NCBI GenBank assembly: GCA_003134995.1
Contig: PLDC01000002.1
Span: forward strand, 111,394 to 175,393
Origin: Acidobacteriaceae bacterium
GTDB lineage: Bacteria; Acidobacteriota; Terriglobia; Terriglobales; Acidobacteriaceae
Length of the DNA stretch: 64,000 nt
Direction of reading: 5' to 3'
The position numbers and the translations under genes were made by a program. Shown piece after piece: positions 7,899-39,041 of this stretch; position 1 is the stretch's first letter, and every line of letters starts with the position of its first letter. A model generated the notes under the pieces. It was given only the letters and a program-made list of their open reading frames with translations. It had not been told where the DNA came from and did not search any database.

Positions 7899-7973
7899 GG
7901 CGCTATCGTCTAGGGGTTAGGACGGAAGATTCTCAATCTTCAAACCCGGGTTCGATTCCCGGTAGCGCTACCA
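7899..7973 (+). tRNA. tRNA-Glu (anticodon CTC)
   Basis: A complete cloverleaf. The acceptor is GGCGCTA/TAGCGCT, the D-arm is GTCT/GGAC, and the anticodon stem is GAAGA/TCTTC with loop TTCTCAA, giving anticodon CTC. The T-arm is CCGGG/CCCGG around TTCGATT. Discriminator A is followed by an encoded CCA. An hsdR remnant ends 27 bp beyond the 3' end, so this tRNA may mark the edge of the accessory region, but I found no duplicated tRNA 3' end elsewhere in the window. Confidence 0.97.
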
Positions 7974-25346: not shown

Positions 25347-25419
25347 GGCGTGTCGGGCTACAGTTTACCACGTTTGAGATGGGGGCTCTTACCGCTCCAG
25401 TCACCCAGATTTGCCGGCT

Positions 25420-25477
25420 TTGCACAAGAAGCCCCTCCCAAGGGTAAGTTACTGTGCAGCCAAGGGGGTTCTTGTGC
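25420..25477. repeat. Inverted repeat with GCACAAGAA arms
   Basis: GCACAAGAAGCCCC near 25421 pairs with GGGGGTTCTTGTGC near 25463 around a central spacer. It precedes the membrane protein gene at 25653 and could be an attenuator-like hairpin or an element end. Confidence 0.45.
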
Positions 25478-25652
25478 AGGAGCCTAAACCCCTTGTTTCG
25501 ATCCCTGAAAAGACTATCCTTCATTGGGCCAAAAGGACGGCTCTGCGGAGAGGTCTGCGATGCCGAACCCGGAAGGGCACAGTCCGCGCTACTGGAAGCG
25601 GCATCCGCGCGCTATGTCACAGTCCGCCCCAGATCAAAGTGAGGTTCGAGAA

Positions 25653-26414
25653 ATGGACAAGAAAAGGAAAGGTTACACAGCAGAACTTTGGGCGCACCGT
25701 GCATTGGTGTTGGCTTGTTTGACAATCGCAATGGCCGCAGCTTTAGTCATCATCGAGAAAACCCCGCTGGGCATGGTTGCGCTGCTCGCGGTATTTTTGC
25801 TTTCCAGCACTTACCCTGTGATGTTTTTTACGGGATGGTTTACACCTGAACATCGCAAAAAGCGAGTAGCAAGATTGGCTTCTCCGATGTTGCTGCTCTT
25901 GGCCTTTACTGGATGGATAGGATACACGTTCTGGCCTAAACCAAAAATTCGGGTATTGGAAATGCAGCCAGAACACATCTTCGCAAACGTCCCGCTGTCG
26001 GTGAGACTTACTTATCGTAACGATGGGCACGATGCAAACGTAGTGGTGTTCTACCGACTAATTCCAGTTGATGATGTGCCCTTCGACATGACGGAGAGAG
26101 AAAAACAAGAGGATTCTATCTGGAATACATTTAAGAACGGCCCCACTCGAATGCCACATCGCGCCACCGTCTTAGAAGGAACCACTGAATACGGCACGAT
26201 GGTGTCAGACCTATTGGTCAGTCCAGCCTTAGCCGCTACGTTCAACACGCCATTTTCACCTACGGATAAAGTTCTTGGAGCACGAAGGGGTCCAGGAATC
26301 TATATCGTCGGGGAGATTCGATTCGTCGGAATTATTACAGAAGTGCCCGTGAGTTTTTGCGGGCTATTTCAGGGGGATGTTGATCTTTCTCCCAAGTGCG
26401 TGAAGCAGTATTAA
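25653..26414 (+). CDS. Unknown membrane protein with extracytoplasmic C-terminal domain
   Basis: About 253 residues from the ATG at 25653; earlier in-frame ATGs exist, but this one begins just before the first membrane span. Three predicted spans at about residues 13-85 (LVLACLTIAMAAALVII, MVALLAVFLLSSTYPVMFF, LLLLAFTGWIGYTFW) lead into a domain of about 160 residues with beta-sandwich character (NVPLSVRLTYRNDGHDANVVVFYR). I do not recognise the family. Its 3' end overlaps the convergent transposase gene by 4 bp, so an insertion may have trimmed it. Confidence 0.6.
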   Translation: MDKKRKGYTAELWAHRALVLACLTIAMAAALVIIEKTPLGMVALLAVFLLSSTYPVMFFTGWFTPEHRKKRVARLASPMLLLLAFTGWIGYTFWPKPKIRVLEMQPEHIFANVPLSVRLTYRNDGHDANVVVFYRLIPVDDVPFDMTEREKQEDSIWNTFKNGPTRMPHRATVLEGTTEYGTMVSDLLVSPALAATFNTPFSPTDKVLGARRGPGIYIVGEIRFVGIITEVPVSFCGLFQGDVDLSPKCVKQY

Positions 26415-27625
26415 GCATTTTGGTGAGGCCAGAACACAGGGTCAATGCCGAGTTCGCACATTTCGTGAATGAGCACCACAAGGTTATGACAGAGAATTTT
26501 ACAAAGCGTTTCGTTGACCATCGCAACGTCAGTCTTGCTGCGAAGCCCGTCTCCAAACTTACGTTTCATCATGGAGAATGCGGATTCAACGTTACTGCGC
26601 TTGTGATAGTGCTGCAAGAACTCATCGCGCCTGAATTGGAAGTAGTGATACATCTTCTCCCATGTTCCCCCGCCAGTTCCCCGATGATGCGAAGCAAAGG
26701 AAATGAAGGGCGTGGCTCCCACGGCTGTAATCGCTTCCGCGTTCGCCCTACTCGCGTATCCCTTGTCTGCGGAAACTTCCGCAATCTGAAAGTTGTGAGC
26801 CGTGCTGCTAACCAGAGAGGGGAGCACGGGCGAATCGTTCGTGTGCCGTCCGTGAATCTCTACGGCGGTGACAATGTTCGTCTTGGTGCCGACCATCAGG
26901 TGAGCCTTTACCCAGTCGTGCTGCTCCCGAACCTGCCCATACTTGTGGTCAAACCAGCGAGTAAAACGGCAGGTGGTGAAACCGCTGGAGTCTACGGCGA
27001 AGTCAGTCTCTACAGCCTTGAGGGGCAAACTGGTTTGGGTAATGAAGCCCTGCAAGATCGAAGTCAAGTCGGGATTCTCAAGGTAATTCGAGATGCTGTT
27101 AAAGTGCGGCACTTTGGGGATGTATCCGCGCCTGTGGGATTCTCTCAGGTCGGACATAAAACGACGCTGCGAAACTGTGCTGTAGACCTTGAATACGATA
27201 TTGAAAGCCGCATCCGACAGGGGCAAGCGCGGACGGCCATTCTTAGCGGGAGCGGACACAAGGCCAGAGCACAAATCGTGCAGCAAGGACTGGAACCTGT
27301 CTTGTTCGTTTGTCTGCGCTTCGTTGTAGGCGCTCCACGCTTGCGGGTAGGTGGTCCGCTGTTCGGTAAGCGTGACACTCTTGGTAACGGTCACGCTGCC
27401 ATCGGCATTTTGTTCGCGTTTCATCACAAAGCGGGCCGCAAAAATGTGCTTGCAGTTCATCCCGCGGGTTTCAAAATCGGGACAAGTGCAGGATGCAATC
27501 TTCGGCATCAAGTGCACGCGGTACGTTCCCTTGCCAGCTTGCGACGGCACAATCCATATTCCAGCCCTTTGGCTAATCGTTCGGGTTGCCGCCAGTTCCA
27601 TTCCGCGCTGCTCTCTCAGGTCCAT
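26411..27625 (-). CDS. DDE transposase with N-terminal SWIM zinc finger
   Basis: A 404-residue transposase. The N-terminus has a SWIM-type zinc finger (Cys46, Cys48, Cys58, His60 in CTCPDFETRGMNCKH). The catalytic core follows the IS4/IS5-like layout: Asp212 in VDSSGF, Asp287 in SADKGYAS and Glu347 in NVESAFSMMKRKFG. The frame is complete. I could not find clear terminal inverted repeats, and the gene abuts its neighbours closely, so it may be an immobilised or domesticated copy. The upstream 100 bp is very AT-rich with several TATATT runs. Confidence 0.88.
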   Translation of the reverse strand: MDLREQRGMELAATRTISQRAGIWIVPSQAGKGTYRVHLMPKIASCTCPDFETRGMNCKHIFAARFVMKREQNADGSVTVTKSVTLTEQRTTYPQAWSAYNEAQTNEQDRFQSLLHDLCSGLVSAPAKNGRPRLPLSDAAFNIVFKVYSTVSQRRFMSDLRESHRRGYIPKVPHFNSISNYLENPDLTSILQGFITQTSLPLKAVETDFAVDSSGFTTCRFTRWFDHKYGQVREQHDWVKAHLMVGTKTNIVTAVEIHGRHTNDSPVLPSLVSSTAHNFQIAEVSADKGYASRANAEAITAVGATPFISFASHHRGTGGGTWEKMYHYFQFRRDEFLQHYHKRSNVESAFSMMKRKFGDGLRSKTDVAMVNETLCKILCHNLVVLIHEMCELGIDPVFWPHQNA

Positions 27626-27691
27626 GCTGCCCTCGCTTACCTGAGAAATATATTACTAGATAGGTATATATTAGTCAAGCATAAAACGCAC

Positions 27692-27720
27692 CTTGACAAT
27701 ATATTATTATCCGGTATATT
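27692..27720 (+). promoter_or_regulatory. Promoter for the small zinc-ribbon gene
   Basis: TTGACA at about 27693, a 16-bp spacer and TATATT, directly before the ATG at 27727. The transcript would have almost no leader, so leaderless or near-leaderless translation is likely. Confidence 0.55.
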
Positions 27721-27726
27721 AGGACC

Positions 27727-27885
27727 ATGGCACTGGTTACACTCAAGAAAAAAGGTTATAAATGCAATCGTTGCTTCCATGAATGGGAGCCGCGAAAAAG
27801 CACGGTCGGCGAGCCGGGAGTGTGCCCTTCCTGCAAGTCGCCGTACTGGAATAAGCCGCGTAAATACAAACTCAAGGCGCGGTAG
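27727..27885 (+). CDS. 52-residue zinc-ribbon protein
   Basis: Starts MALVTLKKKGYKCNRCFHEW and contains two CxxC knuckles (CNRC at 13-16, CPSC at 33-36), then KSPYWNKPRKYK. This arrangement and the SPYW-(N/D)-(K/R)-PR ending are typical of a widespread family of tiny zinc-ribbon proteins. They may bind nucleic acid or act as transcription or translation accessories; no function is known to me. A consensus-like promoter lies immediately upstream, and the gene is divergent from the transposase. Coding status is strongly supported by the paired cysteines. Confidence 0.8.
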   Translation: MALVTLKKKGYKCNRCFHEWEPRKSTVGEPGVCPSCKSPYWNKPRKYKLKAR

Positions 27886-27918
27886 CTCCGATCTTTCAAA
27901 AGGTTTAGCGGAACAGAA

Positions 27919-28026
27919 TGGCGGAGAGAGAGGGATTCGAACCCTCGGATCGCTTCTACGTCTTGTGGACTCGTTGCGATCGCTGGTTTTGCAGACCAGC
28001 GCATTAAACCACTCTGCCATCTCTCC
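27919..28026 (-). tRNA. Class II (long variable arm) tRNA with GCA anticodon
   Basis: 108 nt including encoded CCA. The acceptor GGAGAGA/TCTCTCC is 7 bp and the D-arm is GCA/TGC. The anticodon stem CTGGT/ACCAG encloses CTGCAAA, giving anticodon GCA (Cys). The variable arm is long, GATCGC/GCGATC with a 22-nt loop. The T-arm GAGGG/CCCTC encloses TTCGAAT. The discriminator is G73. Body, long arm and G73 are those of a tRNA-Ser, whereas normal tRNA-Cys is class I with U73. An annotation program would call it tRNA-Cys, but by identity elements SerRS is a likely charging enzyme. Confidence 0.9.
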
Positions 28027-28098
28027 GTTAAAGGCTGCGAGTGGGGAGGACGTGTCCAAACGTTTGACTCCCCACTTGCAGTGCAATAGAACCAGCCG

Positions 28099-28503
28099 TC
28101 AATTCACGGCTTGCTCTACCAACTTCCACCTCCCGTTCTCTTCGCGCGCAACTAGATTGTGCTGTGCCATGCCCAGCATGGCAAAATGGATCACCCTCCC
28201 CGGTTGCTTTTCGCCAAACGGCACGCCGCGCTCGACAGCCGACACCTTTAGTTCATCCAGCCATGCCGCTCCACCTTTTGACTTCAGCGTCTCCAATAGC
28301 ACCTTTGAGAGCACCGTTCCCTGCGGCTCGCTCTTCTCGAAGAGCGGCGGATTAAATTTCTCCCACATCGCGTCTTCGTCTTCGATTAGCTTGTCCAATA
28401 TCTGCTCTTGGGTTGCCAGCCTTTCTGCCCCGGCCAACATAGCGGCTCTCTTGGTCCTGACAGAATCTCTGCGTTCTCGCAGGTCTTGGCGTATGTCTCT
28501 CAT
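28099..28503 (-). CDS. Unknown protein, possible winged-helix C-terminus
   Basis: About 134 residues from ATG 28503; a longer reading to 28638 adds an unlikely leader. The first half is a charged helix (MRDIRQDLRERRDSVRTKRAAML then LATQEQILDKLIEDEDAMW), probably a coiled coil. The second half (GGAAWLDELKVSAVERGV, then FAMLGMAQHNLVAREENGRWKL) has the helix-helix-beta pattern of a small winged-helix domain. It lies just downstream of the class II tRNA on the same strand. Function unknown. Confidence 0.55.
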   Translation of the reverse strand: MRDIRQDLRERRDSVRTKRAAMLAGAERLATQEQILDKLIEDEDAMWEKFNPPLFEKSEPQGTVLSKVLLETLKSKGGAAWLDELKVSAVERGVPFGEKQPGRVIHFAMLGMAQHNLVAREENGRWKLVEQAVN

Positions 28504-28808
28504 TTTAGCCCTCCACTTGGGCCCAGTGTACCAGAAGACTGCGACTGGCAATAGGGTAACCGCAGCCAGTCTGTGGAGAAGCTGTGCAAAACGCTCAAGT
28601 CCAGTGGATAAGGTCGGAAAAAGGCTCCCGAAATGCACCCTTTTTTGTTGACGGTAATCGAATGTTGTTACTCCGGTGTCTTGTAGAACTGGTAACTAGC
28701 AGAAAATAATTATGTTGACGGTACTCAAAAGCGCGTTTACTTTCTATAGCCCCCTATTGCTGCTAGACAGAGCGCCTGCTCAGGTGAATACGTGTGTTCG
28801 GAGGACAA

Positions 28809-29093
28809 ATGCAATGGGAGCAATGGGTCATGCTTTTGCAAAAGTACGGCCCTTTGGTTGGACTATTCCTGGTAATGATCTTGGCGCAGGCTTGGTGGAT
28901 CAATCGACTGTTAGAACGAAACTCCGTGATCTACGACGCGGAAATCAAACGGTTGGCAGATGTGCAGGAGCGACTTCTAACTCACATTATCGGTCCACAA
29001 CCATCGTCTACCTCCGCACCGACGATCCAAGACCTGAAAAGCGGGGTAAAGCAACTCGGAGACAAATCCGAAGAGAAGGGGGCAGGAGGCTAG
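28809..29093 (+). CDS. Small single-span membrane protein
   Basis: 94 residues from ATG 28809, which has a GGAGG ribosome site 4 bases upstream. A GTG-initiated longer form at 28794 would overlap that site. One membrane span (YGPLVGLFLVMILAQAWWI) is followed by a charged helical tail and a Ser/Pro linker. It ends 1 bp before the next gene, so the two are an operon. Topology resembles small phage or conjugation accessory proteins, but no family is recognised. Confidence 0.6.
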   Translation: MQWEQWVMLLQKYGPLVGLFLVMILAQAWWINRLLERNSVIYDAEIKRLADVQERLLTHIIGPQPSSTSAPTIQDLKSGVKQLGDKSEEKGAGG

Positions 29094-29094
29094 T

Positions 29095-29655
29095 ATGGCA
29101 ATGACGATATTCGCTCTTTCTATCCTCGCTGCGGGCTTCGCTGTGATGTTGCTGACATTGCAGCACAGGGTTCCTAAGCTCAAGGCAAAAGAGCAAGCAT
29201 TTCGGTTTCACGCATTGCGTGACCAACTCCAACTCTTGGCCGTGGAGGGTCGCATAAGCACCACATCAGTGGGCTATGAGGGGCTGATGCGGATGTTAAA
29301 TATAGCCATCCGTAATCCCGGATTGATGAAGCTAGGCGACATGCTACGGACAGCAGAAAGCGCCAAGGATACGATAGGCGGCACACCCACGTTTGAAGAG
29401 TTCCAAGAAGACATCCAACATCACGGCCCGGAGATTCAGCAATTGGCAAGCAGTTGCTTCTTAGCCTACGTCCTTATGTTGATCTCAAATGACTCGCTTG
29501 TGCGCATGGCTTTTTGGTTGGCTAGTTGGACCGTGGTCAGACCTGTGTTTCGGCATTTGCGTAAACTGCTGACTCAATTGGTGCCGACCCACACAGAAGC
29601 CGTCGATCTGGCGCGGTGGTATTCATCCGCCGGGGGGAAATTCGCAGCCACATAG
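29095..29655 (+). CDS. Unknown membrane-anchored protein
   Basis: 186 residues. An N-terminal membrane span (FALSILAAGFAVMLLTL) and a second hydrophobic stretch (SSCFLAYVLMLISNDSLVRMAFWLASW) enclose a soluble helical region (LRDQLQLLAVEGRISTTSVGYEGLMRMLN). It starts 1 bp after the upstream small membrane gene stops (TAG t ATG). No family recognised; it probably works together with its partner in the membrane. Confidence 0.6.
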   Translation: MAMTIFALSILAAGFAVMLLTLQHRVPKLKAKEQAFRFHALRDQLQLLAVEGRISTTSVGYEGLMRMLNIAIRNPGLMKLGDMLRTAESAKDTIGGTPTFEEFQEDIQHHGPEIQQLASSCFLAYVLMLISNDSLVRMAFWLASWTVVRPVFRHLRKLLTQLVPTHTEAVDLARWYSSAGGKFAAT

Positions 29656-29825
29656 TCCACTTTTTGTGCAGCGGGGAACGTTTTTGTGCAGGATGCCGTT
29701 TGTGTGCAAAGCCAGATTTGCCTACCTCTTGCCTCACTGTACCATTCGACCGGCACGGTCTTCCGGGCTGCGCTCAGTTTTTCGGGAGCATGCGGAGAGC
29801 CGTGCCAAGGCAACGGGTGGGCGAT

Positions 29826-37955: not shown

Positions 37956-39041
37956 TCAGGCGCGCCGAACCCAATGCATGGATCGGCCGCGGCTATCGAC
38001 GAGCGGATCTACTCCGAAATACTTGAGTAGCGCATTCCGCCAACTCAACCGATGTGGACGTGGGCGTTTCGTCTGTCCCAGGCGCAGAAACAGGGCAGCC
38101 GATGTCGAGTGCTGTGTGCGGGAGGCGAGCAGCCCGAACCGACGCATCGCGTGTCGGTAACGGTCTGGCACGTGAGCGGCCAGCGCGTCTACGAAGTCTT
38201 CAATCAAGTAGCGGGTTGTCACTACCTCCCTTTCCTTCAGATCCTTCGTCAAAAACTCAACCTCTCGATCCGTGATCTTGGTGAATCGATGCTGGGCGAT
38301 GGGCGGTCGTCGAACGTACCGCGCTACATATCGTAGAAAGTGCCATTTCGACCGGATGGGATCAACGTAGACGTTCCACCACCGTTCGTATTGCGTCCGC
38401 AGCATTATTCGTATGTCTTCGGTGCTCGCCTCCGAAGTCAGCAAGCCCTTCTTCAGAGTAGCTCGAAGATAGGTTATGACGGCGTAGCGTCATATAGGCA
38501 TGAGCGTGCGCCTGTCGAAGTGTAGCGGCGCAATCCAGCGGCCATCCGATTCTCGCAGACCTCCGGCCGAAACCATGATGTGCAGATGAACGTTGAAATT
38601 CAGGTGCCGTCCGAACGTATGCGGCACCACAAGAATGAGAACGCGGACGCCGTATGTGGTCTTGACCCATTGTTGGATAACCGCTGCAGCCAGCGCGGGC
38701 AAGTCGTGCAGGAGATGCCGATTGCGTCGGAAGATGGGCCACAACACGTTCGGCATCGTGAAGCCGATGCCAGTATAGGGAATGTCGGGAAGAGCGCTCC
38801 ACTGGTTTCGCTGCCAAAGCAGCGTAGCTCGCTGCCCACAGCTCGGGCAGGACCGCGATTTGCAGGTATGGTAGACGAGCTTCTCTTCGGTTTCTGACGC
38901 AAACACTTCGGCTCCCAATGCGGGGGTACGGCAGTCGATCAGTTTGGAGAAGTTCTCGCGCACGGCTGGGCGGATCTCGGGACGATCCCAGTGAGGGCGA
39001 GTTGCGATCAAGATGTCCTTCAGCGGTTGCTTGAGGGCCAT
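37956..39041 (-). pseudogene. IS91-like (HUH, Y-transposase) tnpA, frameshifted
   Basis: Two minus-strand frames. The N-terminal part (38490-39041) has a zinc-binding start (HTCKSRSCPSCGQRAT) and the HUH motif in NFNVHLHIMVSAGG. The C-terminal part (37956-38444) contains the tyrosine region (FLRYVARYVRRPPIAQHR) and a typical IS91 tail. A frameshift near 38450-38490 separates them: the expected YDAVITYLRATLKKGLL join lies across the two frames. The gene overlaps the upstream ParB-like gene by 22 bp, so the two form one element. Confidence 0.82.

Follow-up and report, generated by a model that had tools for sequence, protein, structure and literature searches.

In the Acidobacteriaceae genome GCA_003134995.1, a 64,000-nucleotide stretch of contig PLDC01000002.1 (positions 111,394 to 175,393; hereafter the window) holds a DDE transposon that carries, as cargo, a class II tRNA gene with a serine-type body and the cysteine anticodon GCA. 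The gene is an extra one: the host also has a normal tRNA-Cys and four tRNA-Ser genes. We consider it fairly probable that this cargo tRNA is charged by seryl-tRNA synthetase (SerRS) and inserts serine at some cysteine codons.

The Rfam tRNA model matches the reverse strand at 27922-28026 with 60.2 bits (E 1.5e-11; gathering score 29). Read from 28026 to 27919, the gene divides into an acceptor strand of 7 nucleotides, a spacer of 2, a D stem of 3, a D loop of 11, the second D-stem strand of 3 and a spacer of 1; an anticodon stem of 5 around the loop CTGCAAA, a spacer of 1, a variable stem of 6 around a loop of 22 and another spacer of 1; and a T stem of 5 around TTCGAAT, the closing acceptor strand of 7, G73 and an encoded CCA. 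Each of the 26 stem pairs is standard (7/7 in the acceptor, 3/3 in the D, 5/5 in the anticodon, 6/6 in the variable and 5/5 in the T stem), and the minimum-free-energy fold shows the same five stems, with a z-score of -3.34 and none of 200 shuffles folding equally well. These results bear out the first-pass annotation of this DNA, which had described a full cloverleaf with a 6-bp variable arm, G73, encoded CCA and the loop CTGCAAA, as well as a 7/5 acceptor branch unlike the 8/4 or 9/3 branches of allo-tRNAs. The variable region, at 36 nucleotides (6-bp stem and 22-nucleotide loop), is far longer than that of the host tRNA-Ser genes. ARAGORN does not call this tRNA; its sole call in the window is a tRNA-Glu at 7899.

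The serine character of the body is evident from its identity elements. Serine identity is independent of the anticodon, and the bacterial determinants tabulated in PMC9976931 are G73, C72, G2-C71, R4-Y69, C11-G24, G30-C40 and a large variable region, all of which the window tRNA carries. The cysteine determinants in the same table include the GCA anticodon (a major one), U73, C3-G70, G2-C71 and the G15:G48 pair of E. coli. Of these the window tRNA has GCA and G2-C71, the latter shared with the serine set, and lacks U73, C3-G70 and G15:G48, having G73, A3-U70 and G15-C48 in their place. Its GCA is not the anticodon of a serine codon and differs from GCU by a single base. Over 72 core positions, with the variable arm excluded, it is identical to the host tRNA-Ser genes at 59 (GCT), 58 (GGA), 56 (TGA) and 48 (CGA) positions. 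With the arms included the ranking is less clear, the aligned-base identities being 78.9% (Ser TGA), 77.4% (CGA), 76.7% (GGA), 75.5% (GCT) and 70.7% (Cys). The combination of a serine-type body with a cysteine anticodon, proposed earlier, is supported.

The window's own assembly (G000; 5.62 Mb, 100% complete) has 50 Rfam tRNA matches, and ARAGORN types 48 of the 49 besides the window tRNA. They include one class I tRNA-Cys(GCA) with U73 (C16:11698-11769) and four tRNA-Ser genes (GGA, GCT, CGA, TGA). The first-pass annotation had considered that the window tRNA might be the only GCA tRNA of its genome or the standard tRNA-Cys of its relatives. The class I gene disposes of the former; as to the latter, the 44 other genomes of the genus yield only partial DNA matches (best E 4.6e-8) and no full-length one. 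A pattern for class II GCA tRNAs with encoded GCCA matches in 20 of 398 genomes of the family, and those that are good after a structure filter are the window tRNA and the copies in genomes G048 and G001. Owing to differences in their loops, this pattern missed the GCA tRNAs of G120 and G300, which came to light through the zinc-ribbon search described below; counts from patterns are accordingly minimum values. A 7/5 serine-type pattern with anticodons NCV matches in two of the 398 genomes, the window's and G203. The G203 copy (L249, 1501-1594) is a class II serine-type tRNA with, by eye, an 8-nucleotide anticodon loop, CTGCAAAG, and one additional base; ARAGORN assigns it an anticodon of four bases, and the tRNA may be of the frameshift type or decayed. 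Scanning the GTDB species collection, which may omit near relatives of the window, for a serine-like D-arm with GCA gives four loci, with U73 in three and one unclear by eye.

The boundaries and contents of the transposon are given in Table 1. The earlier account of the tRNA features holds and its overall reading is partly supported; it had overlooked both the transposon and, in a genome of the same genus, a GCA tRNA with a 9-bp acceptor in the same slot of a related element. The acidic motifs of the DDE transposase are conserved by eye in the transposase alignment.

Table 1. Features of the tRNA-bearing transposon, in window coordinates.
Feature	Coordinates	Strand	Basis
Class II 7/5 serine-type tRNA, anticodon GCA, G73, CCA	27919..28026	-	Rfam, fold, stem partition
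Anticodon GCA	27990..27992	-	Stem partition; UGC and UGU readable via G34 wobble
Whole transposon, 4,298 bp	25416..29713	.	Terminal repeats and perfect 9-bp duplication
Target-site duplication AGATTTGCC	25407..25415	+	Read directly; 9/9 equal to other side
Target-site duplication AGATTTGCC	29714..29722	+	Read directly; 9/9 equal to other side
Terminal inverted repeat GGCTTTGCACA	25416..25426	+	Copy comparison and direct reading
Terminal inverted repeat GGCTTTGCACA	29703..29713	-	Copy comparison and direct reading
261-aa passenger protein, no assigned function	25629..26414	+	Open reading frame (ORF), inner start chosen; no Pfam or PHROGs match
Transposase, SWIM zinc finger and DDE_Tnp_1	26411..27625	-	PF01609 5e-22, PF04434 1e-5, PHROG transposase 9e-16
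52-aa zinc-ribbon protein, two CxxC pairs	27727..27885	+	Sequence; Zn_ribbon_8 20.6 bits, below cut-off 34.4
Hairpin 5' of tRNA	28037..28079	-	Covarying and conserved in eight copies of the element
179-aa protein, no assigned function, on the tRNA's strand	28099..28638	-	ORF; no Pfam or PHROGs match
99-aa passenger protein, no assigned function	28794..29093	+	ORF; no Pfam or PHROGs match
186-aa passenger protein, no assigned function	29095..29655	+	ORF; no family match, including PHROGs

The position behind the zinc-ribbon gene recurs as a tRNA slot in related elements. A 1,061-bp query around the tRNA, searched against the genus, shares with G001 54 bp upstream (93%) and 273 bp on the zinc-ribbon side (76%), and between these stretches G001 has its own class II GCA tRNA with G73. 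Gene order in G048 is identical to that in G001 and the window. Relatives of the zinc ribbon (E 1e-8 or better) occur at 16 loci in 15 of the 398 family genomes, and at nine of these (L260-L265, L270, L272, L275) a tRNA directly follows the zinc-ribbon stop; some of the slot tRNAs score below the Rfam tRNA-Sec gathering score and were recognised by eye or by ARAGORN. At L266 (G026), two long tRNAs lie about 850 bp from the zinc ribbon, outside the slot. The transposase is found at nine of the 16 loci (broken in L267, partial in L268). At E 1e-40 it has a single match in each of nine of 20 genomes, 13 of which had been preselected for the zinc ribbon, and it is present in six of 396 phylum genomes including G000. 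Genomes of other families have two matches (G658) and three (G739), some of them with stops.

Comparison of copies reveals end repeats, GGCTTTGC on one side and the inverse of this sequence on the opposite side. Across 20 loci there are 13 pairs of such repeats 500-9,000 bp apart; the flanks match at 9/9 positions in six and at 1 to 4 of 9 in the other seven. The six elements with a perfect duplication are those of the window (4,298 bp), G001 (2,416), G048 (2,988), G072 (2,330), G223 (2,773) and the viral contig L305 (3,345). The pairs of G197 and G026 have no target duplication, and no pair was found at the G120, G253 (both contigs), G300, G222 and G739 loci, partly owing to contig ends. Four of the six complete elements contain tRNAs (window one, G001 two, G048 two, G072 one). 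At 50 tRNAs per 5.62 Mb, about 0.16 would be expected in the 18.15 kb of the six elements and six are observed, in a comparison that includes the window element, itself selected for its tRNA. The insertion of copies at different sites suggests that the element is mobile. The G001 and G048 elements (L276 and L277), from different genera, have duplicated the same 9 bp, ACACTTCGT, within a terminator-like hairpin, AAAGCCACACTTCGTGGCTTT.

The slot holds 11 tRNAs in nine loci, one or two in each, and none of the 11 has an anticodon that fits its assigned body. Seven of the assignments are firm and four tentative, and all were made with the anticodons known. Six are serine-type (class II, G73), five of them with the cysteine anticodon GCA. 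Those of G001, G048 and G120 have 9-bp acceptors and a 9/3 form by manual pairing, whereas that of G300 has a 7-bp acceptor and damaged D- and T-loops, next to a zinc ribbon with a stop. The sixth, in G072, pairs a 7-bp acceptor with the aspartate anticodon GTC. The seventh firm case, on contig 62 of G253, is a histidine-type body (scoring 46.0 to tRNA-His, with 16.9 as the next best score) with the glutamine anticodon TTG. Among the tentative cases, the G197 tRNA has the leucine anticodon GAG and is alanine-type by G3:U70 and A73 only, being overall nearer to Met or His, and three low-scoring Glu-like tRNAs carry alanine (G001, TGC), ochre stop (G048, TTA) and lysine (G253 contig 15, TTT) anticodons. 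The GCA tRNAs of G001 and G120 are equal at 81 of 91 bases, within an enclosing 1,626 bp at 71.1%, and their first anticodon-stem pair has changed on both sides. This better conservation than the surroundings, together with the compensating change, suggests selection on the RNA.

Further tRNAs lie near or outside the slots. In G739, a Leu-type tRNA with GTC lies 405 bp before one transposase copy, and at L304 of the same genome an ordinary-looking tRNA-Gln(CTG), with no swap shown, lies about 970 bp before a broken copy. There is a class II G73 tRNA with TAT in G026, a second tRNA near G197 and a tRNA-His beyond the L305 element. The two G026 tRNAs at L266 (428-534 and 554-658; same genus as the window) form by eye a tandem of long irregular tRNAs, one being the class II G73 tRNA with TAT and a long variable arm, the other having an anticodon-arm insert. 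G000 itself has four odd extra tRNAs (C17:53721, C14:15545, C21:222654 and C26:77134; L036, L038, L045, L048), with anticodons GCG, CAG (with an insert) and GTC and one untyped by ARAGORN, whose acceptors show by eye the alanine signature G3:U70 and A73; their surroundings, out to about 3 kb, are free of the family's transposase, zinc ribbon and end-repeat pairs.

A hairpin just 5' of the tRNA or tRNAs is common to eight of the nine slot loci. The ninth, G197, shows another hairpin by eye and was left out of the alignment. In the MAFFT alignment, eight of the 12 pairs show changes on both sides, 93.7% of cells are paired compared with 41.7-54.7% in slid controls, and the covariation score is reached by none of 500 shuffles. 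Further pair types number nine, no excess over the shuffles (10.4; at least as many in 493 of 500). The structure was chosen from the same sequences, which biases the cells-paired figure in its favour.

The closest known kind of tRNA is the allo-tRNA, reportedly described by Mukai et al. in 2017. Allo-tRNAs are class II tRNAs of Clostridia, Proteobacteria and Acidobacteria with an 8/4 or 9/3 branch and mostly a non-serine anticodon, and one allo-tRNA pseudogene described in PMC7609411 overlaps a transposon-related ORF. The window tRNA resembles them in its class II serine-type body, SerRS identity elements and non-serine anticodon, but its branch is 7/5 and not the 12-bp 8/4 or 9/3 type, its variable region has 36 nucleotides, and it sits in a delimited transposon. 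The sister tRNAs of G001, G048 and G120 do fit the 9/3 form. The selC* tRNA-Cys shares the long variable arm and a GCA (or UCA) anticodon, but differs in its U73 and bulged 8/4 branch, in contrast to G73 and 7/5 here. Class II GCA tRNAs also form 16 loci found by one pattern (L113-L128), 12 in viral contigs and four in species genomes, with U73 in 14 by eye (one A73, one unclear), which suggests that phages use class II cysteine tRNAs. The viral ones resemble the window tRNA in their class, tRNA-Ser-like D-arm and loop YTGCAAA, but differ from it in carrying U73 in 11 of 12 cases by eye, and are for that reason likely true cysteine tRNAs. Among the matches listed (at least 80 loci), no viral contig has a class II GCA tRNA with G73, and two viral loci that pass the structure filter are by eye tRNA-Ser(GGA) and not GCA tRNAs. 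As for the transposon, the DDE_Tnp_1 insertion sequences, which we take to be IS4-like, share the DDE transposase, terminal inverted repeats and a fixed-length target duplication; the window element adds the SWIM zinc finger, the zinc-ribbon partner and the tRNA slot. A literature search of titles and abstract openings, with most subscription literature outside it, found no publication on transposons carrying such tRNAs.

Under the reading that we prefer, the DDE transposon brings a serine-accepting tRNA into host decoding of UGY codons. Because SerRS does not read the anticodon, it would charge the window tRNA with serine; the charged tRNA would then decode UGC and UGU in competition with the host's normal tRNA-Cys, and some cysteine codons would receive serine. 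This is in keeping with allo-tRNAs, which were reported to insert the amino acid of the body, serine or alanine, in E. coli (PMC7609411). Transcription, serylation, use on ribosomes and any benefit to element or host are inferred; the element might gain from general mistranslation, from the suppression of mutations or from a role outside translation that the tRNA plays together with the hairpin. Several observations weigh against this reading. Six of the 16 zinc-ribbon loci are without any tRNA, as are two of the six complete elements (G223 and L305), and the 22-nucleotide variable loop of the window tRNA is abnormal. By eye, odd T- or D-loops occur in the first tRNAs of G001 and G048 and in those of G253 contig 62 and G300, a hint that there may be uses beyond translation. 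Some irregular allo-tRNAs, moreover, were not chargeable or usable in E. coli (PMC7609411).

A tRNA-like RNA that serves the transposon and not translation, for instance in a regulatory or processing role as a structured RNA acting with the conserved upstream hairpin, would fit the recurrence of hairpin and tRNA slot together with the zinc ribbon and transposase, as well as the non-canonical T-loops of some sisters. We regard it as unlikely, given that the window copy is canonical in all stems, T-loop and anticodon loop and that a purely structural role leaves unexplained the retention of GCA in five of six serine-type copies. The gene may alternatively be a captured tRNA, inert or in decay, that serves no function today, as could be read from the absence of a full-length match among the 44 genus relatives, the long variable loop, the decay seen by eye in the G300 and G253 contig 15 copies and the defective class II GCA-like tRNA of G203; with every stem pair intact despite 13 differences from host tRNA-Ser(GCT) over the 72 core positions, this is less likely still. 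Least probable in our view is a redundant cysteine tRNA, which cysteinyl-tRNA synthetase would charge via GCA despite G73 and the long arm, leaving decoding faithful. GCA is a major cysteine determinant (PMC9976931) and class II GCA tRNAs do occur elsewhere, at the 12 viral and four genome-contig loci above, but the predominance of U73 there contrasts with G73, A3-U70 and G15-C48 in the window tRNA.

Other explanations were rejected. Self-recoding of the transposase, the element gene that this check covered, is not borne out, as alignment columns with at least 10 serines among 15 transposases show no cysteine in any of the four copies that bear GCA. The two residues are mixed in two poorly conserved columns: residue 219 is cysteine in the window and serine in three copies, and residue 179 is cysteine in G120 and serine in the window and two others. 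The alignment thus lends no support to a dependence on serine-for-cysteine decoding. Two stray 30-base tRNA-Ser 3' ends in the host assembly (G000:C29:167675-167704, 100%; C22:21-50, 97%) resemble attachment-site remnants of integrated elements; for the window tRNA an integrase scar is rejected because the end of the tRNA is not repeated in the window, even with up to three mismatches allowed. An origin from a phage or plasmid was likewise considered and set aside. Eight phage records match the window tRNA, each over at most 37% of it, and one plasmid matches it at full length with 71.3% identity. No plasmid matches the transposase at E 1e-20; its one relative among viral contigs belongs to an element that has both ends but holds no tRNA. 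Elsewhere in the window, part of an IS91-type transposase (zinc-binding domain) lies at 38490-39041.

Missense tRNAs are expected to be costly, which raises the question of why bacteria retain allo-tRNAs. We tentatively propose that this transposon family maintains a dedicated slot for tRNAs with mismatched body and anticodon, flanked by a covarying hairpin on one side and the zinc-ribbon gene on the other. By horizontal transfer such elements might spread missense and suppressor decoding, either as a selectable or as a selfish trait, and might be among the sources of the orphan allo-tRNAs of soil metagenomes. The zinc ribbon, the SWIM/DDE transposase and the terminal repeats are markers by which more cases can be found, including tRNAs overlooked, as here, by a standard finder. 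With such tRNAs tied to a transposon of defined ends, one can test whether mistranslation is a mobile trait and whether the tRNA serves the element or its host.
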